Source: Isoetes taiwanensis
Lineage: Eukaryota; Streptophyta; Lycopodiopsida; Isoetales; Isoetaceae
Assembly (NCBI GenBank): GCA_021234155.1
Contig: JAJEKV010000003.1
Span: forward strand, 32,409,166 to 32,473,165
DNA length: 64,000 nucleotides
Reading direction: 5' to 3'
Part shown: positions 2,756 through 60,547 of the stretch, piece by piece
Layout: every line of letters begins with the position of its first letter
Position numbering within the stretch: the first letter of the stretch is position 1
Translations under genes and position numbers: made by a program
Notes under the pieces: generated by a model
Databases searched by the model: none
Told to the model about the DNA's origin: nothing
Seen by the model: the letters and a program-made list of their open reading frames with translations, nothing else

Positions 2756-2940
2756 CTAGGTCTGTTCATCTAGGCCTAGGTCTCAAATTAATTTGCATAC
2801 GCTGTGAACCGCCGGAAGTAACTCTTACCCAAGTTCTGGGTGATAAATATTAAGTACCGCCCAAAATGTTTTTGGCGGTATAAGTCACCAGTTTTGTGTA
2901 ATCCTCCGAACCGCCTCTGAACTTGTATCTTGCATTCAAA

Positions 2941-11865: not shown

Positions 11866-13727
11866 AAACATTTCAGCATTGGAGAAAGGCCTAGAGAGTG
11901 TCTCATTCATATCATTGGTGACCTATGCTGGATATGAACAAAATCCTCAATTTCAGTGGAGCTAATATTCTGCTCAGTCCCCATGATCCTTGTAAAATGT
12001 TTTCTAGCTGCAGTTTTCATCTGGGTATCATTCTCAATATTATTTCCTTCCCATAAAATGCATTGGATATGGTTCCTTCTTACCCTGCCTTTAGCCTTGA
12101 TAAAAAAGTATTTGGAATTTCTCCTTTCATTCTCTTTGAGCTCTTTCACTTTTGCCTTAATTTTCCAGCCCTTAACAATTCTAGCTTCTTCTCTCTCAAT
12201 CTGCAATCTTCCTTTTGTTGCCCTTGGGCTAAATCAAACTGGATTCTCAGGTCTTGGAGACGAGCTGTTTCTTGCTTGTGAATTTCTTTGCCTCAAACTT
12301 TGAGCCAATTCTTTATTCTTTTGGAGACCTTAACCAACCAATCCATCCAACCTGTTTGGCCTGTAGGCTTCACTTCTTGAGAAATTACCTGCTCAAGGTT
12401 AGTCGTAAAATCACCATGATCAAGAAGGGTAGTATTTAACTTAAAATAAGAATTCCTCCTTCTCTGGACATTATTACCACTGATGCTAATGAGCTGAGGG
12501 AAGTGATCCGAGATGGTGTAGTTAGTAAGATTAGTGACTCTAGAGCTATTATTCCAGAGGGACTCACTAAGATAGAATCTATCATAGAGACAGCACACAG
12601 GTTGATCTCTGTGGTCATTCTAGCTGTAAGAATAAGGCACTACCCTAGCTAAAGAAAGGTTATGGGATGATAAAAAGTTGCTCCAAATTAAAAATTCGTC
12701 ATCATTCAAAGCCTGAAATTGACATTTTTCATATAGCTGTGAGTGCCCATGTTAAAGTCTCCAGCTATGATACAATCATCATAAGGAATATTATTCAAAC
12801 TACTGTTGATAGTATTCCAGAGATGGGCCCTATATCAGAAGGTTGGTGGTAAGCATACACATTGATAAAAGCAAGCCTATGTTCCCAACCTTTCCATGAA
12901 CAATCTACCATCTTCTGCTATTATCATGAACCATTTGAATGTCTTCGAAGTTTAATCTATTATGCCAAGCTGTGGTTATGCCTGCAGAAGTGTTGTTAGC
13001 TTTGAGTGACCAACGCTGAAAGTTGGTCTTGCTGCTGTACAAAATTCTTGTGAGTAGGCTTCTCCTTGCTACTATTATTATCATTAGGCAGCACAGAGGG
13101 AGTTTTAGCCATAGGATATTTTGAGTACGAGATATTAAGCTCAATAATTCCACGGTGCGGGATTCTACAAGGCATTTTATCATCCCAAGAGGAAAAAATT
13201 CTCTTCTGGATTCACACAGAAGGAAATTTAGTCTGAGTGATGGAAACTTGAATAACTTCCCCCCAGACTGCCAGCTATTGCCCTGATGTGAGAAGCAATA
13301 TAGCAACCCATGGGAAGACTGGTACTGGAGGTCTAAGTTGTAGTAGCAATGGAGGAGTAATCCCCTGGGATGGAGGAAGGATCCCATTTCATAATATAAA
13401 TAGGGTGCCCCAAGAGAAAAGAGATTTTCTTAGTTAGAATGAAGGGAACACTTCTTTCTTCCCTGCATATAATCTGGAAAGTTTTGTTTTTCAGCTTAAG
13501 GATAGAGAGAATAGGAACCCGTTGGATTTTAGTGATCCAATGCTTGACCACACTAAGCGAGGGGCACTTCTGAAGGAAATGAATAAGAATCCCATGATTA
13601 GAGTTTCTGAGAATGGATGAATTATCAACAATGGCGCTCATGTCCAAGATATTCGCCTTCTCTTCATTCTTGATATTATTATCAGAATAAACAGAATTGG
13701 AAACATTATCATTATAGCACAAAGAAG

Positions 13728-13946
13728 CATGATTTCATTAATTGGATAAAATAACGCAATTTTGAGAATTTTAAGCACACCTTATTTGCTCAAGCACGAA
13801 TACTTTCACCTAGTTCTCGAGCCCAATAAACATGAGGTAATTAATATACACATATACATACAAATTATGTGTTATACTTGTACGGGTACATGATACTTGT
13901 AGAAGCCCAATAATGGCCCTACATTCTACACCAATAATTCACATCA
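13728..13946 (+). repeat. Repeat X, copy 1
   Basis: About 219 bp, roughly 94% identical to 56,823-57,041 in the same orientation (about 12 differences by eye). Both copies start at AGCATGATTTCATTAATTGG, after LINE sequence here and after gene A coding sequence there. Here it leads directly into a TATA-box segment. It may be the promoter-side end of a mobile element or of a small-gene family. Its nature is unresolved. Confidence 0.8.
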
Positions 13947-13962
13947 ATAATTTTCACTTCAC

Positions 13963-14166
13963 TATAAAAACAGCTCGACTCGGGGGTAGAGATCATTCAG
14001 CACAAGAAATGGTGTTAATCTTGATCCATGGCTCCAATCTAAGGCTGATGGTCCTGCTAGTGGCTGCAGGAAGCTCACTCGTGTTAAAGTCCACATTTAC
14101 TGGCTTCCTGATCAGGAGATCTATGAGCTGAATAGCATCACGAGCTTTGATGTTGATGATGAGTGA
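13963..14166 (+). pseudogene. Small gene S1, degenerate paralogue of S2
   Basis: A TATA box (TATAAAAA, 13,963-13,970) and a CTCGGGG-containing leader precede a truncated coding region. The reading ending at 14,164-14,166 gives LDPWLQ, then RVKVHIYWLPDQEIYEL and FDVDDE. It matches the end of S2 (LDPYLR, IRVMIHLIWLPERMSYEI, TDPEDE). No ATG exists in this frame, and about 80 bp of S2's N-terminal part is missing. It looks like a broken tandem copy. The function is unknown. Confidence 0.55.
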
Positions 14167-14460
14167 ATCAATGTTATCAGTGATGACTACTGTATCTGTT
14201 TATGATATAATAATGCTATGAGCACCTATAAACTATGTAAGGATGTAATAGCACAATGAATATTGTTTGATGTATCATACCTGAGTGTAGTGTAGGGTTG
14301 AGCTCTTCGACTTCCACTATATCAGCAAGCTTTTCAATCACACTTGTATTACTAAAGCACAAAAACTTCTACCATCATGAATCCACAAAACATATCCATA
14401 CGAAAGATGTATTATACTTGTATGTACTATGTATACAACAGTCTTACACACGCGCAATAA

Positions 14461-14503
14461 TTGGGGTAAAGTCTACCCCAATAATTCTACCTCACTATAA
14501 AAA
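14461..14503 (+). promoter_or_regulatory. S2 promoter: inverted repeat plus TATA box
   Basis: A perfect 8-bp-arm inverted repeat, TTGGGGTA-5-TACCCCAA, lies at 14,461-14,481. A TATAAAAA box follows at 14,496-14,503, 36 bp before the S2 start codon. The S1 promoter shares the TATA box and the following CTCGGGG leader but not the inverted repeat. A binding role for the repeat is inferred. Confidence 0.55.
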
Positions 14504-14538
14504 CATCTCACTTCGGGGCTAAAGTTCATTCATCTCCC

Positions 14539-14781
14539 ATGGATTTTTCACCGTCATCAGTTCACCACATCGAGGCGATCAAGTGCTCAATGAGCCACTC
14601 TGATCTTGTTGGTTGCCTAGACAGGCATCTTCTTCTTGATCCCTACCTGCGACGCCTAGCTTTGGGCGCTGAGATTCGCTGCCCTGCGTCAATTCGTGTG
14701 ATGATCCATCTGATTTGGCTTCCTGAGCGCATGAGCTATGAGATATCAGGGATCACTACCACAGATCCTGAAGATGAATGA
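14539..14781 (+). CDS. Small unknown protein S2 (80 aa)
   Basis: An 80-residue open frame starts MDFSPSSVHHIEAIK and ends GITTTDPEDE. It has a well-placed TATA box and leader upstream and an AATAAA-like signal near 14,850. I do not recognise a family. It is rich in Leu and Arg in the middle (LLLDPYLRRLALGAEIR) and acidic at the end. There is no signal peptide or clear membrane segment. The tandem paralogue S1 and the duplicated promoter suggest a real transcription unit rather than a chance frame. It converges on gene A, whose stop lies 146 bp away, so it might be an accessory gene of that element, but this is not shown. Confidence 0.5.
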   Translation: MDFSPSSVHHIEAIKCSMSHSDLVGCLDRHLLLDPYLRRLALGAEIRCPASIRVMIHLIWLPERMSYEISGITTTDPEDE

Positions 14782-14926
14782 ATCACCTGTTCAACATGTT
14801 ATAGTGTAAGAGCTCTTGTGTTAAGATGAAAAATGCAAGACGTAATGAATAATAAATAGTCTATATGTAGTGATGTTATGGATAATAAATAGTCTATTGT
14901 GAAATGCTCTAATGTACATGTAAGAC

Positions 14927-17900
14927 TCAAGTTTCATCTCCATCCTCAGATGCCTCTTTAGCAAGCAATTCCTGTAGCTGGATTCCTACAGTAGGAGGTA
15001 TCACAACCAACAATGGCCTCGGTTCCACAGACCAAGCATAGTCTATCGTTTTGAGAGGCTGATAACGTGGTCTGTCATTAGGATTCGGCCTCCACTTCTT
15101 ATGCCAGCAGTCCCGATACTGTTGAGCGTAGGGGGTGCCTTTCCTAGCCATAGGCTCCCACCAAGAAACATAAACCTCGTTATAATGAGGGGCAGTGGGA
15201 TCTTGTATTGGATCCTCTTCCGGACCCATGTAGGACATGCATCTGCTGGTCTTACAAGAAGAAACATACCTTTCTGTACATCTTGGTATGGATCAAATAT
15301 TTCCACTGCGTTCTTGGGTTTATCCCTAGCAGGTCCAACGAAGCAAGTTGGAGCGTCATATCGATCAACCTGAATAGATTCAGGCTCGTCAAGCACAACT
15401 TGCCTTGTGCGAGGCCAGAAGTTCGGAATTTCTGCATTGCTCGGGGGTATTTCTCCTAGAACACGCATCACTTCACACCAGTAGTCTATGACCTCGTTCA
15501 TGTAAGTATTGGACCACGAGTTCACACCAGCCCTGGAGATATTAGCCCAATGCACCATGTACTTCGCAATGGATGATCTCAGTGCTCCTATGTCTTTGAG
15601 ACTTGCATATGGCTTAAGAGTCTTCGGCGACCCTATCGGTATCATTGGGAAACCATTGTCATCTGCTTTCCACATCCGAATACCCTTCTCTGGCAACCAT
15701 TCTCTATGACCAGGTCTCATCTTGTAATACATTACTGGCCATCCATCATTCATGCAAAACTTAAACAATAATGGCTCCAGGTGACCAACCAAACGATCCT
15801 TCTTATCAGGAATGTATCCTTCGACGAAACCCTTCCAAACCGGAACCTCGGCAACAAGATATGGAGTTGGTGCCTTCGTGCTACATTTTCGGAACAGTTG
15901 CATTAGTTCTGGAAGAGTTAGAGCATCAGACCTGCGCATTAATGTTGAATAGTTACCGAATAGTGCATCAATGTCATCATGAGTGTGGCCTACCATCATG
16001 AAGCCCAGCTGTATCTGATCAAATACACCCAACCACACAAGATAGGATAGATAAGAGAAGAGATATCGGTTCTTATTCTGCCCAGAGCAATTGTCTAGTT
16101 GCAAGTATAGTCGCCTAGGTAACATCTTAAAGTGCGATGCTTCCTTAGCAGGTGGTACAAAGTCTTGCCCAGTGCTGTTGCCTTTTTTGGTCCTCAACCC
16201 CGCACTGTTGAGAAGTGCACTGACCCACATGCCCTGAGGACGTCCTTCTTCTCTCAAGTGGCCCCAATTATCTTCGGAAGTATCCTCTAGTGTTTTGATA
16301 GCATGATTCAAGGAACCAACATGAAAGTTCGAATCATCCTTCCAAAGGTCTAGTGAGAAATGTCCCAATGCACCTGTTCCATGGCCATGCATCAGTGCAC
16401 CAGTAACACTAACTTTCAAGCGTTCACCTCTCCATACTGACTTTGCGAATTTCTCTAGTCTTGGAATCATGGTCTTGTTTTGGTCCATTTTATCATGTAT
16501 AATGGTAAGCGCCTGTTCTGGTGATCGATGGGAAAGAGCTCTCCATGACCAGTACAAGCTCCTACAAGAGATCTGGGCAGTCATGTGTGCCTTCCTTTCA
16601 ATCTGCAACTCTCTTCGCTCCCTTGGATCTCTTGTCTTAGCCATTTTTTCTTTGATTACAATACATGTGTTGCACTTAGAGAAAGCTATCCTTTTAGCTA
16701 TTGCAACCTCGTTATGATCCTGCTTCCACCCACGTGAAAATGATGAGTGAGAGACCTGCTTGCCTGTCATCTCCTTCACATTGGCGTTCACCTCTTGAAG
16801 AATGTCCTTCTTGGTTAGAACAGAGGGGAGCCTCTTCACATTCTCTCTTACACCTTCAGTATTGATTTTCGATCTGTGGGGCATTGTCTCAGCGTTCTCA
16901 TCTATATACATAGACAGCACGGCCTTCCCTGCTAGAGTGTGAGACCTTGGTTTTTTCGTGCCCATGTTCCCATGTTCAGCAACTCTGTGACCATCAAGGA
17001 AAAGTCTTCGCCACTTATAGAAAGTGGACATTGGAATACCATATGCTATATGCCATGCTTTCACACAAACCTGCTTGTTATTTAGCATGAGCATCTTCAC
17101 CTGTCCGTTCTCTGAACAAACATCTAACATATTAAAAACAAATGTGGTCCTCTCTGAAGCAGTCAAGTTCCAGAAGAAGGTACGCATGGTACTAATCTCT
17201 GCAGTTGAGAAGTTTGCGCAGCATCTTCTCATACAACAAATCGAAGATTGAAAACCTAAAATTGAAGCTGCCATGATCTTTCTCTGGGCTTTGGTCACAC
17301 CAGCTTTACGTGGAGTCTTGTTCACCATTCTATACATCCTTTTGGGTGCCTTTTCGACATCAATTTGCATGGCATATGGTTCTGCTTCAATGACTGTCTC
17401 TCTGGCAGTCTTTATGAGTGTGGACACAGCTACATTGTCTACTAACACCAAGGCGTTCGACCACTTCACCAAATCATGCAACTGCGGCATCTCAGCACAA
17501 GCCTGACATCTCATTGACGGTCTTTCCGGCATGGGGCATAGCTTCATCACGGTGGCAGCCAGGAAGTCATCACCTAGTCTGGTATCAGCAACTGCATGAT
17601 TAGGATCGGTGAAGATGATCACACCGAAGCCATAAGGCATATCACAACATTCATGCAAAAGTGTGCAATTCTTCTCAACAAGTTCTTCCCTAGAGATACC
17701 ACCATGACGATGTAGTGAAGCAGACGGAGTCGTGGGATCCTCCAACGACAACCAATTCAGCCTCTTTATCTGTCCAGGCGGAGTGGAGACGGTGGTGTTA
17801 TCTTCAAGTGCGGTCACGTCTCTCTCGGGCCACAGGATGAAACTCCCTCTGGACTCTGCAAGTATTGCAATCTCGGGTTCCGGATAAGGCAACGGAATGC

Positions 17901-18036
17901 TCCCATCAAGAATGACTTCCACAGACACTACAGCGAAACCCTCGAGCAAGGGCAAGTTATGGTGCTTGGTGAAGTTGTGTAGACGACCCTCTGCAACCTT
18001 CGTCCCATTGAATAACATGGACATCAATTGCTCCAT
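14927..18036 (-). CDS. Gene A: DUF7869-like putative DDE/D transposase
   Basis: A protein of about 1,036 residues read leftward. The start is placed at MEQLMSM (18,036) because a splice acceptor (TATGACAG) lies just upstream and the sibling copy has an acceptor at the matching place. An N-terminal Cys/His segment (LLHECCDMPYGFGV, MRCQACAEMPQLHD) is followed by a helix-turn-helix-like stretch (KAWHIAYGIPMSTFYKWRR) and CNTCIVIKEKMAK. Three acidic blocks follow: IIHDKMDQNKTMIPR (about residue 517), LQLDNCSGQNKNRYLFSYL (about 644) and VGHTHDDIDALFGNYS (about 687). These match proteins of the DUF7869 type, found scattered in eukaryotic genomes. A DDE-like nuclease or transposase role is inferred. 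The frame changes once near the C terminus, where YVSWWEPMARKG continues in another frame. Gene B is divergent from it. Confidence 0.72.
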
Positions 18037-18067
18037 CCTGTCATATAAACAAAGTAGAATGCTGTAA

Positions 18068-18087
18068 GAAATCGCGGAGGCGATTTC
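18068..18087. promoter_or_regulatory. Palindromic site in gene A intron
   Basis: GAAATCGC-GGAG-GCGATTTC, perfect 8-bp arms around 4 bases. It is a member of the RATCGC-N4-GCGATY family. Confidence 0.8.
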
Positions 18088-18149
18088 ATGGAACACTATC
18101 TGTCAGTATTGTGGGGGCATTTGTCAATGTACCTGAAAAAAGGTGCGTT

Positions 18150-18167
18150 AGATCGCCACTGCGATCT
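18150..18167. promoter_or_regulatory. Palindromic site upstream of gene A
   Basis: AGATCGC-CACT-GCGATCT, perfect 7-bp arms around 4 bases; same family. Confidence 0.8.
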
Positions 18168-19427
18168 GGCTGAGCACTGAGAGTCCACAATACTGCCACT
18201 AATGAGGATCTATTCCAAGAGATCTATTCCCTACGAATGCTCTATTAAAACACGTCGGCGATCCGATTTGAACAAAATGAGGTTCCAATATGTGCGGAAT
18301 TGTCCTTAGCTTCTGTAGTAAAAATGAAGTGTTTCAGCAAGGTTCCAACATGTTGCGAGTTGTCTAACGTGATCTAGCAACTTGTATTCCCTCCATGTGG
18401 CAAGGAAGATACTTGTAGAGAAACAACAGACCATTACTGACATGTAGCTGAATGGAATTATCGTGGACAGACGTATTGAAGACAAAACAGAGGTTGGAAT
18501 TAGTGAAGATCTAGCTAGTGAAACTCATGCAACCGATCATCTATACAAACAATGTTGTTCCCAAGAGCAGGAGAAAGCATTAGTCCATATAGAAATTTTA
18601 GAACCATTAAATCAATTTATGGCACAGAACAAAGCAAGTTAAGTGAGTGATTTATCATTGAAATGATGCACATGAACACTACTGTCCCGAAAACAAGAAC
18701 AATGCGATTGCAGAATAAAACCAGAACAATGCATATCAAAACATGCAGTGGACATCGAATCTTGCCTGTTTCTTGCACTGAGATGTCGATTAAATGCAAC
18801 ATTTTATCGAGCGCCATCAGCCGCCTCCCTTGCGCCTCTGCAGAAATCTCCGGAGCCAATGCCTTTGGAATGGTTTGGAATGAGGAGCTCTTGGCGGGGA
18901 ATGAGAAAGTGCATTGGGCGGGGAAATTTGATTTCTAAATTCAAATGAATGTCTTGTTGTCAGCGGCAATTGTTGTCGCAGTCACCGTACATTCGGTTCG
19001 TGCCAAACTCCAAAATGCGCTGGCTGTCTCCATCGGACAGGTAAGTTAACTTTGACAGTTACACGCTTTCCACGCGTAATGTCAGGCCAACTGCATTTAT
19101 GTCAGACGGATTTCTGACAGGACATTACGGACAGGGCATAAAGTATGATGCCTTTATCCCTTCCGCCAGTCAGAAATAAATGCGCCGACGGAATTAAATG
19201 TGCTGTAGAAAATTAATGTGCCGTCGGAAATTAATGCGCACGTGTGATTCTGACACGTGCACTTATGACGGCACCGTACTGGCGGGACATTTATGGCGGG
19301 TGTCCGCAGGCTACTTAAATGCTTTTCGCGATTTTTTGGAATCTAACTTTTCCTCCGCCCTCGAAATTTTCAGCGCCTTCGACGAAAACCAGCGCCATCA
19401 TGTCTCGATCTGCCGCCCCCAGAGAAG

Positions 19428-19769
19428 GTAATTTTCGCGCTTTCTTCCAGCAGTGCTCCTTTGACACCATTTTGTACTTTAAATTTCATTGAGTAGAGGT
19501 CGAAAGGATCGCCACCGTGATGTTATCGATCTGTATTTGTTCTAGTTTATGGTTTAGAGTGCTGAAAGGAATCGCGGCCGCGATTTCCCTCACTTGTTTT
19601 GTTTTGAAGCTTGCTTGCATCACTTGGAAGGATCGCCGTCGCGTTCCTTGCCTCCATTTTTTTGAAATGTCTTATTTGAATTTTGCTTGCAAGGACCGCG
19701 GTGGCGTTTCTTCGAAGCTCTTTCTTTTGAAATGTCTATTGACAGGTAGTTTTTATTTTGTTCGTGCAG
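19428..19769 (+). other. Gene B intron 1 with four regularly spaced palindromes
   Basis: A 342-bp GT-AG intron carries RATCGC-N4-GCGATY-type sites at 19,507-19,522 (one arm worn), 19,570-19,585 (AATCGC-GGCC-GCGATT, perfect), 19,631-19,646 and 19,694-19,709. Their centres are 63, 61 and 63 bp apart. The sibling copy's intron 1 (54,509-54,873) carries five sites. Confidence 0.75.
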
Positions 19770-21348
19770 CACTTGACCTTTTCAGAGGTCCAAACGTAGA
19801 ACCCATGCAAATAGTAACTCCCGATAAATGTCGAAGGTGGTGCATGGAGATTGCCCAAGCGATACCCCATATCAAGGGGGACCGTAGGAAGGACCTCTGC
19901 CTCTTCTTGAGGACCGGTAAGGGGCCGGAGGACTTTGAACAGATGGGCATTATCGTAGCCATGTGGGAGGGCACGAAGAATAATGCAGGATGCCATTATA
20001 TGTAGCGGTGAGGACACACAGCAGCTACAGTTTGTGGAGTATATCCTTCGATGGCAGAACTACGACCCGTCCATTATGACTGCAAGCAAGCACAACAAGC
20101 TAGCTAGTGGCAAAGGTGTGCCAACTAGTGCAAAGGGTTTTGGTTGGGATCTGCCATCATATGATTCCTTGTCTCTCTCTGGTATTAAGTGCAACAGAGA
20201 TCTCCTCGTGGGTCTCAGCAAGTGCAGAAAGGGCTTGTCAGGAGATAAAAAACCTCCTTCTTGTGCCTTAAAGGCTACTAAAGACAACAAGCTTCATGCG
20301 CGTATGGATACAAACTGGTTGCATGATGTTGCTAAGAAAAGGAGTGTTGTTCCATTAGCTGCAATTGGTGAACCATCTGAACCGAGAGATCCAATATCCT
20401 GCTCAGCTAATCCAATATCTTCAGTAGTTGTAGATCCTACTGCTCCGAAAATGCTCATGCCTCCCCTTATAGTGCCTCCCCCTACAGAAGAACCAGTACA
20501 ATTTTCAAGGTTAGACTTCGGCCTCTAAATGTAGATGATAAGGACCAGCCTTCTACATCATCTACACCTACCTCATCAGGTGTCCCAACTGCCACTTCAA
20601 CTGCAATAACCACTTCAACTTGGCCTTCTGAAACTCGTATGCCTGAGGAACTCAAGTTCAACCCTGCCGAGGAAAAGAAACTTGTGGAGCAAACAGCACA
20701 GAAGCTCGAGGAGTTCAGAAAATTTTATCCAATGGGAGTGAATTGGTTCACAAAAGTTAGTATCTTCGACTGCAAGACAGCTCCAGCTACAATGACGCAC
20801 AGATATCTTTCGAATGACCATGTGCAAACTCTGATAAGGAGCTTCAAGAAGTGCCCTACGGCGGTTCTAACCCCGGCAGATGTTGTCCCTTTTGATCCCA
20901 TCACAAAGTAAGTACTTTGTATATGTACATTATTGTGAGGTTGTCATTAACTAAAATATTTTGTATCCCAGGAAAATAATAACTTGGACCAGACCTGAAG
21001 ATCTTCAAAACAAAAAATTTTACATTATTTCTGGAAACCACAGCATATTTGCTGCTCAGATCCTATGCTCTGTGATGGGGACCATCGAACAACGGACCGA
21101 ATTTATGAAAGTTTACGCAAGGAGAAGAACACGGGTGCTGAATGGAAACCTGTCAAACAGGGAATATATTCAGTTATCTATTCAATGCAACGACATAATT
21201 GCAGACTCCGTGTACAGAGAGCCACTTGTGGAAAAGCTTCAACAGCTTCGTAATCAGCACAAGGCTTTCGGGTGCCCTCCGCAGGGTCCAACGGGCACAG
21301 CAGTCACATCGGCTTGGAAGGTAAGTCTATTTACTTTTTGCTGAAACA

Positions 21349-21364
21349 GATCGCCGGTGCGATC
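21349..21364. promoter_or_regulatory. Palindromic site in gene B intron 3
   Basis: GATCGC-CGGT-GCGATC, perfect arms, inside a 65-bp intron. The sibling gene has a related site in its matching intron (52,903-52,918). Confidence 0.8.
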
Positions 21365-23514
21365 CTAACGAGCATTTTACTCCAGGATTTTGTCGAGGTA
21401 GCCACTACGACACTCAAAGTGAAAGAACTCAAAGACGAAAAATAGTTTTTATTCATGCAGGAAGAACCATGGGCGAAGTTCATGGAAGTCGTAAATAAGT
21501 GGGCATCACGGAAGCTATCGGATGATCATGGGGAACTGCCAGAAAAGCCCACAAAAGAATTTTTCAACAAAACATTTCTCAGGTGCCTTCGTGGCATGAA
21601 CAATGCAGAGGTATCACAGCTTATGGATGAGATCCTATGTGGAAAGACATATTTAAAAGTGCAATCTGGTTATACCGGCAGGCATGAATGTAAGCAGAGG
21701 GCCTTGGACATAAGAACTCTGACATTGATGCACCGTGAGTTACTGTCCTACGCCAACTGCTTGCTAGACAAAAAATACGGCAACATAGAGGAGCTCGTGA
21801 CAGAATTCCATGAACTCAATGAAGAGAGGTTACTTGATATAGCAGGTATGGATTTTGATTATATCAAGGCCAACTATAATAAGGATCACGTTCAGGGAAA
21901 TCTTCCCACTGTTTTTCTGGAAGCTTTACTCAAACCCGAAGAAGCAAAAAAACAGAAAGAAAAAAGGAACATTGTTAAAGCAGTAACAAAATCTGGTGTT
22001 CTAGTGCGGGGGCAAGTATTGGAAAATGCCACCATGGTTTTTATTGATATGCGCAGTTTCAGCACTGTATGGGAAGTAAAAAAATACACAGATCTTTTCA
22101 GCAGGATTGCAAGTATGACTACTGCAAAAGTGTATCATATCGTGATGCTCCTGAGATCAGTCCACTTGCCAAACTGCTTATACATCCAAAGTCAAATCCA
22201 GGGCTCTTCCCATGTATCCACGGGTGCTTATGAAGAACAGGGCTGGGTTAACAAGAAAATGATAAAGGAATTTCAATACTACGTCACGCATGTGACGATC
22301 AATAGAAGTGACGTTCGTATCTTACCTGTGCTACCAAGATTGGAACTGCGTCTAGCTCAGGGGACCAATGCGCCAAGAGGCACACCTCTACCAAAGTATC
22401 CAATCACAGGTAATGAGGAGGTGGACGCCAAAACAAAGAAGAAATACCTAGAATACTTCACATGTAAGCCTAAGTTTTCATGGGCAGCTATGGAAGGGGA
22501 TTTTGTTCTGAAAGGCCAGGCTAAAACGTCGTATATCTACGCCATGGTGAAGGAATTGGTTCCAGATGATGGTGCTGTTATTGACTTCTTCTCCGCGGGA
22601 ACTGCTTCTAGAGTTGCTCTGATGCAAGGTAAGCGTAGCGTTTCTTTGGAGTATGATGACAAGGTCTGCAGGTTTTTGAGATCGTTCTTCGAGACCTTGG
22701 AGAAAATGGCAAGGCCACCCTCGGAAGAAGAAGAAGAAGAACAGAAAGTAAACCCGGACGCAGAAAACGTGCCAAACATCCAAATAACTCAGCAGACGGA
22801 TCTGAGTAACATGGATATGGTGCTGGACCAGCTAGATCAGAAAAGCTTTGAGGAGAGGCTGGAGGAAACAAAGGCTCTTTTAGAGAAGACAGAAAAAGAC
22901 AACGCTGCTCTTGATAAGACATTTGAAAAGCTCGAGGTCTTGAATCAAAAGTTTGATGCGGTAATGCCATTAGTAAGTGGTATGCTCAACAAACAGTCTA
23001 GCCAGTTTGAATACATTGGTCCCTTGGAATCCGAGACTCAATTTGAAGACCCAGAAAATATCGAAGTAACCAAGAGAAGCAAATTAGTAGATACGTCCGA
23101 ATATAGTGCTGAGCTACGTGAGGAATTGTTGGATACACAGTACTCAGGGCGTGTGCAGCATATCGCTGAGGCAATGGGTGTAGAAATTCCTTCGGTTACA
23201 GGATATTCAGAAGCGAATCTCTCACAGACCCTTGCTTTAGGTAAGGCACATACAGACAGAATGGCCAAGGAACTTGGCATTGCTCCGGAGTCTGCGAATG
23301 AGACTCCAGAGTCTGTGGAAGAGACCCAAGATAACTGAAGTTTTCTCGCTTTTTATGGATTTGAATTCATCATGTAAAGACTATGAAATTTTGTAACAAA
23401 CTTTTGCTCTTATGAGGAAATGATTGTTCTCTTACATCTTTTTACTGTATAGAAGTACTGACCTTGTGTATTATTATCCACTTTACTGATCTTGTGTTAT
23501 TCTGAACTTGTCCG

Positions 23515-23536
23515 GAAGATCGCCATCGCGATCTTC
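23515..23536. promoter_or_regulatory. Palindromic site in gene B 3' flank
   Basis: GAAGATCGC, four bases CATC, then GCGATCTTC: perfect 9-bp arms, the longest of the family, 177 bp after the stop codon. Confidence 0.85.
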
Positions 23537-23624
23537 TCCACATGTTTAGTCATTTGAGAATGATATTAAAATGTTGACATAAACCTTATAATGACCTCTC
23601 ATACCTTGTTTATCTGGTTAAAAA

Positions 23625-23640
23625 CATCGCCATGGCGATT
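23625..23640. promoter_or_regulatory. Second palindromic site in gene B 3' flank
   Basis: CATCGC-CATG-GCGATT; the inner 14 bases form a perfect palindrome. It is the last site seen on this side, so the element probably extends at least this far. Confidence 0.75.
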
Positions 23641-23906
23641 TGCATGAGTATTGACGGCATTATAGCTGTTAAGTGTTTTGTGTTCCTACACAGTAAAGGT
23701 CGCCCCATAATTGCTTTTCCCGCGGATAAAAATAATGCGAGCAAAAACTGTGCTCTTAGTCATTGTAAATTGCTTAACAATAACAACTTTTTTCATTCTA
23801 GGACGCTACTGCGACCTATTTCGTCTCGAACGAGAAAACCAAATTTCTCTAATTAACGAAATCATGCATAAAGAATTGAGCAAAGCACTTTTGTAAGAGT
23901 TACCAT

Positions 23907-25900: not shown

Positions 25901-26129
25901 AAGAATCCATGTATGACCAAGTTGTCTGCATGCCATTACAAATTGACACTCTTCACTGGCATTTGGCTTCATACATGTGTGTGTGTGTGTGTGTGAGCTT
26001 CTAGAAAGTGAAACTTGAAGACATCTGTCACTTGGCAACTTGTAGAAGACACATTGATATGAAGAACCAAAGATGGACACTGGGTTGGCATCATATAGGC
26101 ATTTCTTGAAGGACTCAAACATGCCACAC

Positions 26130-27810: not shown

Positions 27811-28629
27811 AGTGGAATTTTTGGTAGAGGAGTTTGGCAAGGGATAGAATAGAGGGATCTTGAAGAACTTAAAGCGCTGACATCCTTCCCCAAGTCGAAC
27901 CAGACCAGGACTTTGCGCAGCTTCCTCACCAGAGGGGAGAGGCCGGACCCCAAGAGACGGACCTTAGAAAGGCTCCCGATGCAGCCTTTCCTGCCAGCGC
28001 TCCTCCAGGAGGGAAAATGCCAATGCCCCCCCTCCCGGAGCTCGGTTTCGCTATCCAACCGTTGAATCTGCTGTTCAAGTAACCTGCTTCGAGCAGGTTC
28101 AAAAAAATCCAAGATCGGTCCGGGAGAACTTATCAAACCGTGAAGCGTCATGCGGTTGACCGTGTAGAAACCCAAGTGTTTTGTCGTTCGGGCAGTACAA
28201 AGGCTCCAGAATAGAGATTCGACTTCGCCATGTCGTCTGGAATGGCAAAATTACCCTAGGGACCAAGTTACATGGTCATTTTTGGCAACGAAAGAAACAT
28301 GAACCCTCTACATGGCAGTATTCCGCAGCCACCTCCTTGGCCAATTGACTACAAACGTGTTGGACATGAGCTACTTTGGTACTTTTGGAGAAGGGGTGGT
28401 CTTCTGCCCATGAAACTTGGTCCCCAGGGTAATGTCGACATTCTGAGTCCATTGGCAGAGCCAGTTCACACTTTCGGAGTGGGACAGTTACCCGTCTGTG
28501 GCCAGTGGCCTTCGAGAGAGGACTTTTAGGGCGAGCTGCTTTCGGAAGGTTTTAAGGGTCCGTCTTCTGGCATCAACACCCTCCCTCTACGCGATGACAT
28601 TGTGCAAGATCCTGGTCGAATCTGACTAG

Positions 28630-36565: not shown

Positions 36566-36764
36566 GAACTATCTGCTGTTTGTTATGGGACTTTGAGTGT
36601 CAATGGAACTATGCATGTGAAGCGTAACAGTTGTGCCTTCCCTGATATGCTATAGCAAGTTTTGTTCAAGAATATTTAATTTTTGGAACATATGCTATAG
36701 CAAGTTTTTGTTCAAGAATATTTAGTTTTTGGATTTTCCCCTTCTGGCTTACCGAATCATTGAT

Positions 36765-49740: not shown

Positions 49741-50025
49741 GCCTCTAACAATACTAGATTTTATCTAGTTCAAACATGTTCTTATATCAAGCAATGTTCT
49801 CTAGATTCATTAATTAGAGAAATTTGGAATTCTCGTTTAGCATGAAATAGGTTAGCGGGTAGCCATATAGTGCAAAAACTACTACCAATTGAGTAAAATT
49901 TGGCGTTTTTTTGCACAAATTCTGCAAATGCTTCAGTGTTATTCGGAAATATAGTTTTTACTGCTAATGCAAAGGTTCACCGCGAGTAGAACGTAGTAGG
50001 AGGGAGTGTTAAAACTTCTCGCAAG
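49741..50025. other. AT-rich DNA left of element copy 2
   Basis: No gene is seen. The left end of the second A/B element should lie in or near here, but no terminal repeat was recognised. Confidence 0.3.
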
Positions 50026-50191
50026 AAGCGCGAACGCGATGTTTCGCAGCTGAAAGGAGACAAAATAATGTGCCTTTTATTAAAACCATATGAGAGCGTT
50101 GTGTTAAAAGAAGGTACCGAGGAGCAAGGATATCACACAAAATTCAGTATTTAAAGCCATATAATTGCTACAGAGGATCGCGGTCGCGATT
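50026..50191. promoter_or_regulatory. Two palindromic sites in copy 2 gene B 3' flank
   Basis: AAGCGC-GAAC-GCGATG (50,026-50,041, one arm worn) and GATCGC-GGTC-GCGATT (50,176-50,191). They mirror the two sites behind gene B in copy 1. Confidence 0.7.
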
Positions 50192-52036
50192 ATTTTTAGC
50201 ATTAAACATATGGTAAAAGATATGGGTAAAGACAAAACCAAAGTTCCCGAAACAAAAATTTCCATTGAAGGAAGTAATATACAACATAATTACTGATTGA
50301 AGGAGATAATTATTCGATTGTGTTTTGATACTTGATCGTATCACACCCATTTCATTGGCCATGCGATTGACATGCTCTCTACCCAATTCCATGGCTTGTG
50401 TTGTGTCCATCTCTGAATAACCTGTGATCTCTGGAAGTACAACACCCATGGCCTTTGCGATGCGCTGCAGATGTGAATCAGGCTCCCATTCTTCACTGTC
50501 CACTGCACTGCTCCCGCCTATAAGTTCCTTCTCCGATGCAGTAGCATTCTGCTGTGGATGAGAGCTTCGCTTCTTCTTTGTGTACTGATGCTCCCTGTGA
50601 CCCAAGAACCTCATCTTGGTCAATCTCCATGTGTCGTTGGTCCGCTTCCATGTCTTTGGTGGTTCTGTTTCCATGTGTTCTCATCCACGTATTCAAACTT
50701 ATGTTCGCCCGTCAAGAAAGGCATGTACCCATCAAGCTTCTCATTAAGTGCACTCAATTTTTGAAAAGTGGGCTCCAGGGCTTCTATACCTTTTTCCGTC
50801 TCTTCAAGCAAGCGCTTTGTTTCTTGCATTCTCTCTTCGTAGGACTTAGCATCGAGGTTTTCCAAAATGGAATCCAACTTTGATAGATCCGTGTTTTGGG
50901 TGATACTGATGTCGGGTTGAGCTGGATCAGGCTCAACATTCTCTCGCTTTCGGCTCTTCCTCAAACCCATCTAAGACTTTGATTGGCCATTTTATCAAGC
51001 GTTTCAAAGAACGCCTCGTGAAACGACACACTTTACCTGAACTTTTCGAAGCCACGCTCTTTTTGCCTTGCATAAGAGCAACACGAAGCCGCCCCAACCA
51101 AAAAAGAAATCCGTAACGCAACCATCGGTCGCACCAGTTGCTCAACAATATGGTAGGCATAGGAGGTTTTCGGTGGCATTTCAATACAAGATCTCCTTCC
51201 ATTGCCCATTTGAATCTTGGTTTGCCCTGTAAAAAGAGTCCGATATTTCTTTTTTATCTTCGCCCGGCATCCTCATTACCGTTAGCGGCATTGGAGGCAA
51301 TGGTGTTGACTTAGGAGCCTTGCCGCGGTGGAGATAGGTGAAGCTCCAACTCTGGTTGCACGCGGGTGCTACACCTAACATCACTCCTGTTAATGCACAT
51401 ATGACTAATAAAGTACCGATGTTCTTTTTCACCCTTCGTTTGCTCTCCCATCCCATTTCTTCATAGGAACCTAAAGATAGGTAGCCACCGCCTGAATTTG
51501 CTTCCGACTGCACAAGCAATTGGGCAAATTCACTGAGTGCATGATAATGACCAAGTGATAAACTTTGGCATTCGGTCATGGTAGCTATCCTTGTAAATAG
51601 ATCGTGTATTTTTTGCAATCCCATACCTTGTTTATCCCTAGGATGTCAATAAATATCAATGTCGATTCTCTCGACACTTGGGAGGAAGTAGCGATGCCAT
51701 CCTTTGTCTTTGCTATGACAATATTTCTCTTTTCCTTTCTTTTTCTAGCCTCCTCTCGGCTTTAGAATATTCCCCGACCGGGCTCGTAAAGGCTACGTGT
51801 AGGTTACCAAGTGTATGATCCTTGTTATAGTTAGTCTTCACGTATTCTCAGACAAGATCGATATATCCAAGATTCTCTCTGCTCACCAAATCGGAAAAGC
51901 CCTCAAGCAATTCGTCCCAGCTATAGAAATCCTTTTGCAGCAAATTAGTGGCATAAGATAAAATTTCTCGCCTCATAAAAGTGAGGGTTCTGATGTCAGT
52001 TGCCCGTTGTCTGCAATCAAATCTCCCGCTATAACC

Positions 52037-52593
52037 CATTAGAGGTAATTTGAGATCTCATTTTGTCCCATTAAGGGATGCTTAAAAAGCCACATCAGCT
52101 TTTTAAACTGTCCAATAAGAGAAGAGCTCCAGTGTATTTTATTCCAAAGATATGTGGCGTATGAATTAATGCAGTTCTAACTAACTTTTGCAGTGTCATT
52201 TTTCTACTATAACTTTTGATCAAAAACTCCGATTCGAACACTATTTGTGGCAATGGATTCGTCTCCTCAAGATCTTTCTAATGAACATATATATCCTCAA
52301 GATCTTTTGGGATGTAAATATATAAGAAAAGAACAAAAAACCATATTTTTTAAGGTTAACACATATGGCTTGTATTGAAATACATCATAACCATATATCA
52401 CTTGAAAGATCTTTTCATTCTGCATCTAATGCAACAAACGCCGCAGCATTTTCATGAGTAGATCAAAAGTTATAGGGAAAAAACTACAGCAATGAAGTTG
52501 TTAATGCTGCATTAATTGCAGTTTGATGTAGAGTAGTCATTCTATTGGAGGATTCTTATGGGGACAAAAGGAGATCTCAAATTACCTCTAATG
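52037..52593. mobile_element. MITE inserted in gene B copy 2
   Basis: A 557-bp element with terminal inverted repeats starting CATTAGAGGTAATTTGAGAT; the complement sits at the right end, about 35-38 bp each with few mismatches. Inner inverted words (ATAACTTTTGATC and GATCAAAAGTTAT) make it a foldback. Without it, gene B reads VQS-GYS as in copy 1 (VQS-GYT), and no target duplication can be seen. It has no coding capacity. The superfamily is unclear. Confidence 0.85.
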
Positions 52594-52902
52594 TGACTGC
52601 ACCTTTAAATAGGTCTTGCCTTCTATAATCTCATCGAGCAGCTGTGACACCTCTGCATTCGACATACCTCGTAGCAACCGGAGCCAGGTCTTGTTAAAGA
52701 AGTCTTTCGATGGCTTGTCTGGAAAGTCACCATGGTCGTCACTTAGTTTACGACTCACCCACATACCGGCAACTTCCATTAACTTCTTGAAAACCTTCTC
52801 ATCCATAAAAATGAATTGTTTTTCATCCTTAAGCTCCTGCACTTTCAAGGTGGTCGTTGCAATTTCATGGAAATCCTGCAGAAGCAATTTCAAGGTCATC
52901 AA

Positions 52903-52918
52903 GATCGCGGCCGCCAAC
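52903..52918. promoter_or_regulatory. Palindromic site in copy 2 gene B intron 3
   Basis: GATCGC-GGCC-GCCAAC, with one arm worn; position conserved with 21,349-21,364. Confidence 0.6.
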
Positions 52919-54508
52919 TTGGCGAGTAGAAAACAAATAAATACCTTCCAAGCTGAAGTTTTAGCTGTCCCTATAGGTCCTTGTGGAGGGCAACCATAAG
53001 CCTTGTGTCGATGACGGTTGTTGCGCTTTTTCAATCGGTGGCTCTCTCAGACACGCGGTGTTTGCAATTACTTCGTTGCATTGAATACTCAACTCTATAT
53101 ATTCCTTTGTCCAGACGATTTCGTTGAGCACCCTCGATCTTCTTCTAGCATATACTTTGGCAAATTTCGTTGTTTTCGAACTTCGCCCGATTTAACCGAA
53201 CAAAGGAGTTGTGCAAACAAGAATATCGTGGGTTGCCGTAAATAATATAAAATTTCTTGCCCTTCAAATCTTCGGATTGCTCCATGTCATCCCTCCTCCG
53301 AAAGATAGACAACCGTCAAGTCAAATCTACATAACGAAAGTGTCCAAAAGATAAAGAATTAGTTACTTGGTAATAGGGTCAAACCGAACGACGCCGCCAG
53401 GGTGAGGACCTCTCGTCGGGTATGTCTTGAAGCTTTTAACCGAGTTTGAACATGGTCATTTGATCGCATTCTCAGGTGTCAAGTTTTCGGTGCAGGTTCA
53501 CAATCAAAAATAGAAATCTTTGTAAACCAATTAACCCCTAAGGGGTAGAACCTTTTGAACCTGCTCAAGCTTCGAAAGTGGTTTGCTCTGCCATCTTGCG
53601 TTCCTCTTCGGGATTGAACTTCAACTCGACTGGAATGGCAGGTGCGTGGTGCCATGTCAATGCTAGTCTAGAGGAGGCATCCGTGAATCGAGGGGGTTTG
53701 TGAACTGGCCGGGTCGCGGGCTATCTTCGTAGGGTGTCGATTCTCGAGGCTAATTTTGAAAGGAGGGAGCTTTTTTGGAATAAATCCACCAGATGTAGTG
53801 CTATCTGGGGCCTTCATAGCAAGAGGAAGAGTAGGGTTAACAATACCGGAGGGGTTTATCGTGGATTGTGGTTCTTGAACAACCTCTTTTTGGTGCTGAT
53901 GTCTCTCCCAAAGTAGCAATAGGCTTCACACTTTTTTTCTTGGCCACGGCTCTTAGCCAATTGGTGTCCATCACGGAGGGCATCTTTCGTCCCGAATCGC
54001 TTTCAAGGCACAACTCGGAGGCTTCTTGTGCGTAGACAAACCATTTTCGCATGCCGGAGAACCCGAGCAATATGTCCCCGTTTCCCTTTATTCCCGACAA
54101 AAAGAGAGATTCATAGGATGGCAACAACCAGCCATAACCCTTAGCCGACGTGGGGACGTTTTTCCCCGTGGGTCGGCTTGTTCATTTTCTTCGGGCCGTC
54201 ATCGAGACGGGTCATAATTGCGCCATTTCAAAATGTACTCCGTTAAACCGCAATGCTTGTGTGTCCTCAATGTCGCATATGATAGCATCTTGCACATTGT
54301 TCTTCGTGCCTTCCCACATTGCCACCACTATGCCAACTTGTTCAACGCCCTCGGCTTTTTCCAAATCGCTAAAACAGTAATGTGTCCTTTCTGCGATCAC
54401 CCTTAATGTGTGGTATAGCCTGTGCAATCTCAATACACCATTTCCTTTCATTGGAAGGGGTTATAATACGGACGGGCTCGACATCTGGTCCTCGGAAGAG
54501 AGCAAGTG

Positions 54509-54873
54509 CTGTAAATAAAAGCCTGTGGTGAGTGCCTGCTAGGCTGTATAATGTGGTGCAACGAAAAGGTATAAACTACTGTAGAGAAACGCGACCGCGA
54601 TCCTGCCAAGCAGCTAAAATAGAACTCCACACTATCGCGGCCGCGACGTTGTGTAGCACTTAAGCACGGCAAGAAAACATCGCGGTCGCGAACCTAATGA
54701 CCTACTACACTAGTACTCATGAACATCGCAAGAAAGGAAATCTATGCTCAGCCAGACCGCGGCCGCGATCTTGTTGAGCAGCTACACTTATGAAGACCGC
54801 TATCTAGAAATTACAAAACCTAGCAAGCAAGACCGCGGCCGCGATGTTGCTGAGCTGAAATGTTAGAAATTAC
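54509..54873 (-). other. Gene B copy 2 intron 1 with five palindromic sites
   Basis: Sites are at 54,587-54,602, 54,633-54,648, 54,678-54,693, 54,755-54,770 (GACCGC-GGCC-GCGATC) and 54,831-54,846. Centre spacings are 46, 45, 77 and 76 bp. A half site (CATCGC) at about 54,724 lies between the third and fourth. Confidence 0.75.
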
Positions 54874-54901
54874 CTTCTCTGAGGGAGTCCTTAGGTGCCA
54901 T

Positions 54902-55842
54902 GGGATCGCGGGCGCTGGCTGAGTACGAAATACGAGTCCTTTTGGAGTGGCTCGAGAAGGCTTCTGAGGTATTTGAAAGAAATCGCTGAGTCGAAATTTG
55001 TTTTTAAATGTTTTGAGTTTCAATTTATAGAACGCGTCGCGGGAATTAATTGCCCGCCCCTCATAATGGCGGGTGAAAACGCGTGCGACCATAATGGCAT
55101 CAGACGGCCAGTAATAATAATTACCGTACCGGCCAGATTTATTCTCGACATAAATGCGGCCGTATAATATACCCGTCCGAAAAAGGCAAGTAATCCGCAT
55201 TAAAGGTCTTTATCCACTTGGACGCCCGCGTTCAATTTCGGGCCGTAATTTGGACCGACACATTATGCGACCATAAATGCCCCAAAAATCCGGTTCTGGA
55301 CCGGACAAAGGATCGTGGAAATTTGAATCGAGAACAAACCAATTCGAAAGCGGGGAAAAGCCAATTCAAATTTCATTGTTTTGCAAGATCTTCGAGGGCC
55401 GGAGCTGCGCTAAAATTAAGCCGGGCCAAGTTCGGGCAAGGATTTGCCGCAGAATTCGCATCCATTGAAGGCGCCGACGAGGGCGCTTGATAATCCGCTT
55501 GCAATCCGCCACTACACATTCGAATTCGAACCGCATCGAATTCGTGGTTTCTAAGCGAGGTAAAAGGCCTATTTCGATGCATATCCTTCATCAAGTGAAC
55601 TCAACTTTTATGTTGCACTGAATTTCAATTATAACTACAACCTCCGAAGTCTCGCACTAACATCACTATGTATTGCATGGATTGATAAGATACCTTGATA
55701 CTTTGTTGCAACTATGTAAAATAGATGTTCTAAGCAAAAACTGTGCACTCGTTGTGTTTATTATACAATGTAAACATGTTTCAAGAATATGCTTTCTTTC
55801 TCCATGTGGATGAAACTAAACACTGTTTTCATGACACTGCAG
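54902..55842. promoter_or_regulatory. Divergent spacer of element copy 2
   Basis: GC-rich DNA between the divergent genes, with repeated CATAAATG, CGGCC and CGGGC words. A donor-like GCGAG-GTAAAAG near 55,560 may end a first exon of gene A. It matches the character of 18,037-19,399. Confidence 0.45.
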
Positions 55843-56822
55843 CTTCTGACGGGTCCTCGGCTACAAGTTGACGTTGACTACACCGTGATTACGCGGAGGT
55901 ATGAGTAATGCTTTATTCTCGTAAGTCAATCGTTTCACTTTGGTGCTCGAGATCTAGGGTCGCGATACCTTCAACCATCTACACTTGCTATTGACCAAAG
56001 AACTCCCAACCTATCGATAACTTTGAGTTGAAACCACTAGCTAGCCTCGAAATGTGATTTGCACGAAGTTCTTATCAAAACAGCTAGTGTGAATGCTTTA
56101 AAAAAACGACCGCGTTCTTACCCATGCTCGATAAGATCGCGGGGGCGAAAAGTCCCCGACCATTTTTATTTTTCGGTTGCTATTTTTTGTAGTGGTTTAT
56201 GACCATAGTGCTTTTCGCTACGAGGATCGCGCCGCCGCTTATTCACGACCTCTTTGTTTGCAGGATGGCTGATGTAATTCGCCAGATCCGCTGGGGAAAA
56301 AGGTGGCGTAAGGAAGAGTCCACAATTTCGGCGCCATCACAATTCGACCGTCCGGAGGGAGGGTATGGTTGTCGCTTCAATTGTGAATGTTCGATGGACA
56401 AGCATCGCTACCAATTCCGAAATGGAAATAGAAAAATGGGTGAAGCCGTGGGGACTTTTGTGTTGTGGTACAAGAAGGACATTGTCGCTCAACTTGATAG
56501 ACATGAGGAAGCTTGCACCCCACCAGTCGATAAAACGATAGATGGCGGGGTGACAGAGGGAATGAGGGGTTAGCCAGTAATGAGACGAATCATGTGCAAG
56601 GGCTTTCTAGAGATGAGTTAGTTGAGAAGGCGTGCACACTCATGCATGAATGCTGCCACATGGCTTATGCCTATGGTGTTATCGTTTTTGCCGATCCAAA
56701 CCATGCTGTGTCTGACGTGAAGTTAGGGGAAGGCTCGATAGCTGCTACTATCATGAACATTTTTCCAATGCCTGAAAAGATCTCTATGCGCTGCCAGGCC
56801 TGTGCAGAAATGCCCCAACTAA
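55843..56822 (+). pseudogene. Gene A, second copy (truncated)
   Basis: An exon-like piece at 55,843-55,898 lies between AG and GT signals. An intron (55,899-56,263) with palindromic sites follows, then a coding exon with ATG at 56,265 (MADVIRQIRWGKRWRKEE). Recognisable homology to gene A copy 1 runs through GTFVLWYKKDI, then LSRDELVEKACTLMHECC, GVIVFADPNHAVSD and MRCQACAEMPQL. It stops abruptly at 56,822, where Repeat X begins, so about three quarters of the protein is missing, including the acidic motifs. One frame change lies in the remaining part. Confidence 0.8.
56135..56240. promoter_or_regulatory. Palindromic sites in copy 2 gene A intron
   Basis: GATCGC-GGGG-GCGAAA (56,135-56,150) and GATCGC-GCCG-CCGCTT (56,225-56,240), both with a worn right arm. 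They correspond to the sites upstream of gene A in copy 1. Confidence 0.6.
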
Positions 56823-57041
56823 GCATGATTTCATTAATTGGATAAAATAACGCAATTTTGAGAATTTTGAGCACACCTTATTTGCTCAAGCACGAATACT
56901 TTCACCTAGTTCTCGAGCCCAACAAACATGAGGTAATTAACATACACATATACATACAAATTTTGTGTTATACTTGTACGTGTACATAACACTCGTATAA
57001 GCTCAATAATGGCCCTACATTGTACGCCAATAATTCACATA
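56823..57041 (+). repeat. Repeat X, copy 2
   Basis: About 94% identical to 13,728-13,946. It starts inside gene A sequence at a shared GCATGATTT word and ends against the Copia fossil. Confidence 0.8.
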
Positions 57042-60370: not shown

Positions 60371-60547
60371 TTAAATCTTAGGCTCCCGTGGAAAAGCGTG
60401 TTTGACCCATCTTGATTTTCGGTGGACGGTTAGACTTGCACAATATGGAATATCTTGTTGTAGATTCTCTGGATTAACGGTCCAAATGAGAAGGGGTGAG
60501 ACGATTACTCAAGAAATAATAATTAATTTGCTCCCGCGTGATAGCTA

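Follow-up and report, generated by a model that had tools for sequence, protein, structure and literature searches.

In the brown alga Ectocarpus, the transposon Sola1-1_Ec32 is described as carrying a gene for a ParB-like and N4/N6 DNA methyltransferase protein of 1,104 aa opposite its transposase, and green and red algal transposon cases are cited alongside it (PMC12477816). In Arabidopsis, VANC21 is reported to bind motifs found mainly in the non-coding parts of VANDAL21 (PMC5735166, PMC10398659); the VANDALs are MuDR transposons. Fungal DNA transposons of several lineages are reported to encode a TET/JBP dioxygenase (PMC12730594). DUF7869, the protein family of one gene described here, was not mentioned in the open-access literature searched, and no paper there combined QNKN, transposase and DDE.

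The locus lies in a window of 64,000 nucleotides from Isoetes taiwanensis, and positions are counted from its first letter. A first-pass annotation had proposed a two-gene mobile element at 14,927-23,640. The element was found to be real, but its inverted repeats give it a larger extent, 13,727-23,867. The divergent layout of its genes stood: A, counted from its first Met, occupies 14,927-18,036 on the minus strand, and B occupies 19,400-23,338 on the plus strand. Our reading, which we hold to be somewhat probable, is that this element, element 1, is a damaged copy of a class II cut-and-paste transposon, about 10.1 kb long, with an accessory protein that acts on the element's own palindromes. 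Its ends and genes are as follows.

13719..13726, no strand: left copy of the probable 8-bp target duplication, ACAAAGAA
13727..23867, no strand: element 1, the whole mobile unit, with 24-nt terminal inverted repeats identical at 21 of 24 positions
13727..13750, plus: left terminal inverted repeat
13850..14166, plus: second, frame-broken copy of gene C with its upstream region
14539..14781, plus: candidate gene C, small (80 codons) and close to the left end
14927..18036, minus: gene A, DUF7869, probable D-D-D transposase
19400..23338, plus: gene B, accessory protein, from open frames, splice sites by reading and homology to the second copy
19400-19427, 19770-20907, 20972-21320 and 21386-23338, plus: exons of gene B as read
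23844..23867, minus: right terminal inverted repeat
23868..23875, no strand: right copy of the probable 8-bp target duplication, ATAAAGAA

When up to 6 mismatches were allowed, the left terminal 24-mer had only three other copies in the window, at 56823 (0 mismatches), at 23844 on the minus strand (3) and at 43873 (6). The probable target duplication, from a single insertion, is alike at 7 of 8 bp with one mismatch; random pairs of 8-mers from the window match this well with P 0.00067. Element 1 shows inverted repeats, a probable 8-bp duplication at 7/8 and an acidic D-D-D set, features looked for in a cut-and-paste element. Near its left end, the possible gene C has a TATAAAA-like box upstream and resembles the second tandem copy: the DNA is 67% identical across 159 upstream columns and 69% identical across 70 columns of the 3' end, and 13/28 residues are alike. 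An Rfam search gave no match, and sequence comparisons with solved structures gave chance-level matches only.

The likeliest alternative, which we regard as possible and lean against, is that element 1 is simply a Sola1 transposon as described in algae and Physcomitrella. Both follow the same plan, a transposase and a ParB/methyltransferase-like gene on opposite strands (PMC12477816), and a Physcomitrella Sola1 appears in a review table. The flanks of element 1 may speak against it; they fit an 8-bp duplication at 7/8 and a 4-bp one at 3/4. Sola1 makes a 4-bp target duplication, and duplications of 4 bp are reported for Sola2 elements. The annotation had called the element undescribed. This was right only in part: a ParB and methyltransferase gene opposite a transposase is already published for a brown-algal Sola1 transposon, and element 1 would be a new variant. 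Its arrangement is therefore not wholly new, a similar pairing having been reported in algae.

The identity of gene A was borne out by a profile comparison, in which it matched PF25273 (DUF7869) with 142 bits against a Pfam cut-off of 26 (E 2.2e-41). The C-terminal tail of A, from 14927 to about 15200, lies in another frame, which implies one frameshift or an unseen intron. Comparison of A with 11 bacterial-contig homologues, 12 sequences in all, shows no variation at D670 and D712 and almost none at D585. A partial model of A, poor at a mean pLDDT of 44.9, puts these three residues behind strands 1 and 4 and within a late helix. A fold search with this model returned nothing at E <= 0.001; Mos1 transposase (E 1.5) and a retroviral integrase (E 2.3) were at chance level. 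Searches for viral relatives of A found none, and a viral search with two DUF7869 motif patterns had no match.

The bacterial-contig homologues provided a second line of evidence. Seven of the 11 were inspected at their loci, leaving out the other 4, and six of the seven are repeat-flanked insertion elements (L001, L005, L007, L008, L010 and L012) with flanking inverted repeats of 39-61 nt. The seventh, L003, has only a weak pair (64-nt, 75%). An exact flanking repeat of at least 5 bp was present at just 1/6 insertions, and 7 such genomes have one DUF7869 gene apiece, unlike a busy insertion sequence. Since the D-D-D residues are shared and inverted repeats occur at 6/7 bacterial loci, DUF7869 is most likely a transposase. 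Pieces of gene B gave chance-level matches only at these bacterial loci.

Two further copies lie in the window. The annotation had reported a second A-B pair in the opposite orientation. Such a pair is present at about 49.8-56.8 kb, but it is a remnant, with B in fragments and only the N-terminal part of A.

49794..56820, no strand: element 2, an older related copy in the opposite orientation and without the A-side end; left limit approximate
50330..54509, minus: element 2 gene B, fragmented, as tblastn pieces with E down to 6e-46
56265..56820, plus: N-terminal part of gene A in element 2, the only part left, matched by tblastn at 41% across 216 alignment columns (E 4e-31)
56823..57040, plus: left end of element 3, a third copy, adjoining the A fragment of element 2

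The B-side end of element 2 is similar to that of element 1 over 47 nt. Across 220 nt the element 3 end matches 13725-13944 with 94.5% identity; the identity starts at the terminus, and two outer A bases agree too. The claim of mobility is supported by the inverted repeats, the probable 8-bp duplication, the end of the third copy and the repeat-flanked DUF7869 genes in bacterial contigs. Gene B has about 1,150 codons. In element 1 it is broken: the frame shifts at about 19.99 kb and again at about 20.49 kb, and an in-frame stop stands at 21443-21445. Its annotated introns were recovered: reading of the sequence gave three with GT-AG borders, and the inner two stand, likewise by reading, at the same places in the element 2 copy. 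Mostly exonic B DNA of the two elements is 66% identical over 1,043 columns.

Both elements share a 14-bp palindrome, ATCGC-N4-GCGAT, and the shared palindromes reported earlier proved to be far more frequent than expected. At up to 1 mismatch, 21 sites of ATCGCNNNNGCGAT occur in the window against 0.39 expected, a count reached by 0/100 shuffles, and 19 of the 21 are inside the two elements. The non-coding DNA of the elements (4,774 bp) holds 16 sites, compared to a Markov mean of 0.16 and a maximum of 2 in 300 runs; another 3 are in element coding DNA and 2 in the 46.6 kb outside the elements. All 7 exact palindromes are in element non-coding DNA. When sites with 2 mismatches are included, matching places in both elements are the A 5' region, B intron 1, B intron 3 and the B 3' region. 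When the intergenic regions were scanned for another shared motif, no 7-mer had more than 5 copies. The sites at up to 1 mismatch in these places are listed here.

18071..18165: element 1, A 5' region, two palindromes, exact
19508..19645: element 1, B intron 1, three palindromes, one exact
21350..21363: element 1, B intron 3, one palindrome, exact
23519..23639: element 1, B 3' region, two palindromes, exact
50027..50190: element 2, B 3' region, two palindromes, one exact
54588..54845: element 2, B intron 1, five palindromes, one mismatch each
56136..56149: element 2, A 5' region, one palindrome, one mismatch

Subterminal sites are known in other plant transposons. The palindromes could be sites of that kind, or binding sites of transposase A, leaving B with a different role. 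Their concentration in element non-coding DNA would suit this, as would the two that lie less than 350 bp from the right end. However, the left 1.2 kb has no site at 0 or 1 mismatch and most sites are in introns and leaders, away from the ends, and we consider this explanation unlikely. B may instead be the partner of the palindromes, as one candidate beside A or a host protein.

What kind of protein B is was addressed with motifs, profiles and alignments. It had been labeled as ParB/methyltransferase-like, with two segments named.

20642..21320, plus: ParB-like segment of B, at motif level only, best window LQNKKFYIISGNHSIFAAQILCSV
22034..22696, plus: segment of B that is methyltransferase-like by its resemblance to SAM motifs only, best motif-I window VIDFFSAGTASRVALMQGKRSVSLEYDDKV

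The motif tests drew their rows from 10/38 methyltransferase and 10/13 ParB proteins. The best ParB-motif window had p 0.023 against shuffles, having been chosen after the fact, and the best motif-I window had p 0.18. The profile matches that had been predicted do not occur: ParB N-terminal PF02195 had no match to B at E <= 10, N6_N4 DNA methyltransferase PF01555 had no profile match, and the Pfam, PHROGs and NCBIfam profiles placed B in neither family. The DPPY-type catalytic motif of the PF01555 family is absent at the place where it was expected by eye in both B copies, which read FIDM in copy 1 and FIDI in copy 2. Alignment of parts of B with four bacterial/phage ParB-methyltransferase fusions by hhalign gave E 0.09-0.22, at places other than those expected. 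Custom profiles were built from 13 ParB rows and from 43 and 53 methyltransferase rows; for the null, B exon 4 and the ParB-like part were each shuffled 2,000 times. On exon 4 the methyltransferase profiles scored -3.3 and below, under the 5% shuffle levels (0.7, 1.1). The ParB profile scored 0.6 bits on B4 alone, between the 5% (-0.7, -0.4) and 1% (2.0, 1.3) shuffle levels, and -1.7 bits on B3 and B4 joined, below the 5% level. Exon 4, the part of B searched, had no phage match and no viral relatives, and its single-sequence fold was unusable (mean pLDDT 36.7). Stray matches of B to Cas9_PI (E 0.012), to an anti-restriction PHROG (E 0.033, over 418-504, a predicted coiled stretch) and to GpsB (E 0.03) were set aside, none being over the cut-off where one exists. 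The label of B therefore keeps its short motif resemblances, which are weak or not significant, while profiles and hhalign fail and DPPY is missing. On these sequence comparisons it is not established.

These results bear directly on the suggestion that B is a working N6-adenine or N4-cytosine methyltransferase, targeted by a ParB-like domain, that puts a non-host mark on the element and so blocks silencing or guides the transposase. Such an activity is predicted in the Ectocarpus Sola1-1 paper for a protein that is alike in size (1,104 aa) and position (PMC12477816), and the best motif-I window of B is a plausible SAM-binding stretch. With DPPY missing at the expected place in both copies, no profile match, custom profiles under the 5% shuffle level and a motif p of 0.18, we find this suggestion improbable. 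That A and B are an ordinary host gene pair, duplicated locally and non-mobile, is highly improbable: two pairs do lie within about 43 kb (13.7-56.8 kb), but inverted repeats and a flanking duplication surround element 1, the pairs are strongly diverged and in opposite orientation, and a third element end adjoins the A fragment of element 2.

For the transposon that we favor, we propose the following mechanism. A would be an RNase-H-type D-D-D transposase that binds the 24-nt inverted repeats, excises the element and inserts it elsewhere with an 8-bp target duplication. Catalysis by A is probable from its conserved residues and its relatives in bacterial contigs, and the ends and the probable duplication are seen directly. 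B would be read divergently from the region between A and B, and would recognize ATCGC-N4-GCGAT in the leaders, introns and 3' region of the element. Its putative role at the palindromes is to alter or protect the methylation or chromatin state, which would keep the element transcribed or mobile, in the manner of VANC proteins on VANDAL elements. A more specific version, which we hold to be doubtful, is that a ParB-like B with a catalytically dead methyltransferase domain loads at parS-like palindromes, sheathes the element and insulates it from host silencing. A partition-type DNA-clamp system would then have been recruited against silencing, its site and protein co-evolving from family to family.

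Compared with known systems, the bacterial DUF7869 elements resemble element 1 in having a DUF7869-type protein, the same D-D-D residues and terminal inverted repeats; they are about 2.1-2.7 kb long and have another repeat sequence. Pfam lists DUF7869 as of unknown function; the analysis gives it a concrete and probable role, that of a transposase present in both bacterial and eukaryotic sequence. Sola1-1_Ec32, compared by description only and not by transposase sequence, is likewise a large DNA transposon with two genes on opposite strands and an accessory protein of similar size. It is 21.5 kb long, whereas element 1 is 10.1 kb; its gene is described as ParB/methyltransferase, whereas B lacks a profile match and DPPY; and section 5 of its account mentions no palindrome set (PMC12477816). 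The palindrome offers a specific candidate target sequence for the algal ParB/methyltransferase-like transposon proteins. The fungal TET/JBP elements share with our reading of element 1 a DNA transposon carrying an epigenetic-enzyme gene, of a different enzyme class. VANDAL21 also has a transposon-encoded accessory gene and short motifs concentrated in non-coding regions of the element. Its motif as reported, YAGTATTAY, is non-palindromic and arrayed in one orientation, in contrast to the palindrome of element 1, and B is likened to VANC by arrangement. Should B act on the palindromes, it would join VANC as an example of a sequence-specific regulator that a transposon encodes for its own chromatin.

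Element 1, the unit that carries the divergent genes A and B, is bounded by a 24-nt terminal inverted repeat (21/24 identical) with outer limits at 13,727 and 23,867. The first-pass annotation had set the pair at 14927-23640; its place was right, but the inverted repeats define a larger unit. The sequences ACAAAGAA and ATAAAGAA directly flank the inverted repeats and match at 7/8 positions; two 8-mers drawn at random from the window match this well with P 0.00067. Eight was the best among the lengths 2-12 listed (4 bp gave 3/4), and an 8-bp target duplication is probable. With its DUF659 protein, spliced genes and repeats, the window looks eukaryotic, and it is likely plant DNA.

Features of the window
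42-1,271: DUF659 protein
2902-4539: HSP70-like open frame, 545 codons (Pfam HSP70, E 1.8e-06)
13,727-23,867: element 1
13850-14781: possible small gene (~80 codons, acidic C-terminus) in two tandem copies with TATAAAA-like boxes, at the left end of element 1; the 80-codon copy had no match in a Pfam search
26111-27811: tandem repeats over ~1.7 kb, about 77-80% similar to one another; a stray unit lies at 29389-29465
36580-40114 and 59162-64000: block repeated twice in the same orientation, ~23 kb apart, with 2.5 kb at 94% identity and tandem repeats alongside
~49.8-56.8 kb: element 2, an older A-B copy
52037-52593: 557-bp insertion in element 2 gene B with 39-nt inverted repeats (92%); it looks like a small non-autonomous element
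56,823: left end of element 3, a third copy
57125-57538, minus strand: open frame shortly past the third element's end, by eye resembling part of a Copia-type retroelement; no Pfam match above cut-off

Both genes were found where the first-pass annotation had put them. Gene A, on the minus strand, has an open frame of 1,019 codons and is DUF7869-like, as proposed (Pfam E 2.2e-41); its C-terminal tail runs on in a different frame, read as the sign of a frameshift or of an intron that was missed. Gene B, on the plus strand, has a first exon of 28 nt and three more exons, with GT-AG borders read from the sequence. It is damaged: the frame changes near 19.99 kb and again near 20.49 kb, and 21,443-21,445 is a stop codon in frame.

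The second pair is present in the opposite orientation, but its gene B survives only in pieces and its gene A as the N-terminal part alone; at E < 0.1 the rest of the window held no match to gene A past residue 210 or so. By reading, the two inner introns of gene B have the same positions in both elements. Since gene B DNA is 66% identical between them (1,043 columns, mostly exonic), element 2 is not a recent local duplicate. The left terminus of element 1 is repeated at 56,823, with all 24 nt identical; identity begins at the terminus and reaches 94.5% over 220 nt, and two outer A bases match too. This third end adjoins the surviving part of element 2 gene A and is therefore the trace of an insertion or rearrangement that happened there later. 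Its other end was not found within the window.

The palindromes said to be shared by the two elements are strongly enriched. ATCGC-N4-GCGAT occurs at 21 sites with at most 1 mismatch, compared to 0.39 expected, and 0/100 shuffles equaled this. With feature limits set by the analyst, one or two bases off those of the exon reading, 16 sites lie in the 4,774 bp of element non-coding DNA, where a Markov model gave a mean of 0.16 and at most 2 over 300 runs. All 7 exact sites are among these 16; element coding DNA has 3 sites. The 46.6 kb outside the elements hold 2, both within one short ATGGCG run. Places common to both elements are the A 5' region, B intron 1, B intron 3, where the sole site of element 2 carries two mismatches, and the B 3' region. 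Element 2 favors GGYC as the central four bases; those of element 1 vary. That copies so far diverged have their palindromes in similar places speaks for a function.

A DNA pattern for DNCxGQNKN, scanned against genome contigs, gave 12 loci. Eleven, in bacterial contigs, carry genes of 251-668 codons whose proteins tblastn relates to gene A; the twelfth, L004, was a chance match. Because several of the contigs are short and come from MAGs (in one case a sponge symbiont), eukaryotic contamination may explain some of the loci. L005, on a 147-kb contig of an isolate, and L012, on a 48-kb contig, stand on firmer ground. DUF7869 scored above the Pfam cut-off in all four loci scanned with Pfam and in 7/7 genomes searched for it. 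Among the sampled groups the family is rare (7/291, 2/369, one of these below cut-off, and 1/395 genomes), and most of these hits were genomes that the pattern had already found. No mention of DUF7869 was found in the open-access papers searched.

Gene A and its 11 homologues share H(F/Y)SxD, DNCxGQNKN and GHTxxxxD in alignment, with D670 and D712 invariant and D585 nearly so. In a partial model of gene A, one aspartate follows strand 1, another follows strand 4 and the third sits in a late helix. We infer from this the arrangement of RNase-H-type transposases; the model has a mean pLDDT of 44.9, and a fold search had no match at E ≤ 0.001. Inverted repeats were sought at 7 of the 11 loci. At six, arms of 39-61 nt flank the DUF7869 gene over a span of 2.1-2.7 kb; L003 has just a weak 64-nt pair (75%). 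The six (L001, L005, L007, L008, L010 and L012) are apparently insertion elements of a family without assigned function in Pfam. The starts of their inverted repeats mostly contain TGGGG. Two results speak against plain insertion sequences: 1 of the 6 has an exact repeat of at least 5 bp at its flanks, and each of 7 genomes holds one DUF7869 gene.

Gene B had been labeled ParB/methyltransferase-like, on the strength of short motifs. In motif matrices, the best gene B window was the proposed segment for both domains, ParB first and methyltransferase second, but with p 0.023 and 0.18 and in a test picked after the segments were seen. Gene B had no credible match in Pfam, PHROGs or NCBIfam, nor its exon 4 in a phage collection; hhalign against ParB-methyltransferase fusions (L028 and three phage proteins) was unsuccessful. 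Custom methyltransferase profiles scored under the 5% shuffle level. With the custom ParB profile, one piece of gene B (B4) alone scored above the 5% but below the 1% level; B3+B4 came out under 5%. DPPY is absent from its expected place in both gene B copies, where element 1 has FIDM and element 2 FIDI. On these results, the label is kept by context only.

As far as a single window can show, the mobility of the element is well supported. This reading rests on the ends, the probable duplication, the further copy's end and the membership of gene A in a D-D-D family whose genes lie between inverted repeats in other contigs; the distribution of palindrome sites was observed as well. The gene A product would excise and insert element 1, and the gene B product may bind the palindromes and modulate the element's chromatin or its methylation. 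The gene B label has less support, and so does the idea that the element is of an undescribed kind: the two-gene plan of element 1 is already published for algal transposons, among them Ectocarpus Sola1 (PMC12477816). Without claiming that gene B is a VANC, we consider VANC21 and its Arabidopsis transposon VANDAL21 the nearest working analogy for gene B and the palindromes. VANC21 binds a short motif that occurs mainly in VANDAL21 non-coding DNA (PMC5735166), and VANC proteins lead to loss of silent marks (PMC10398659).
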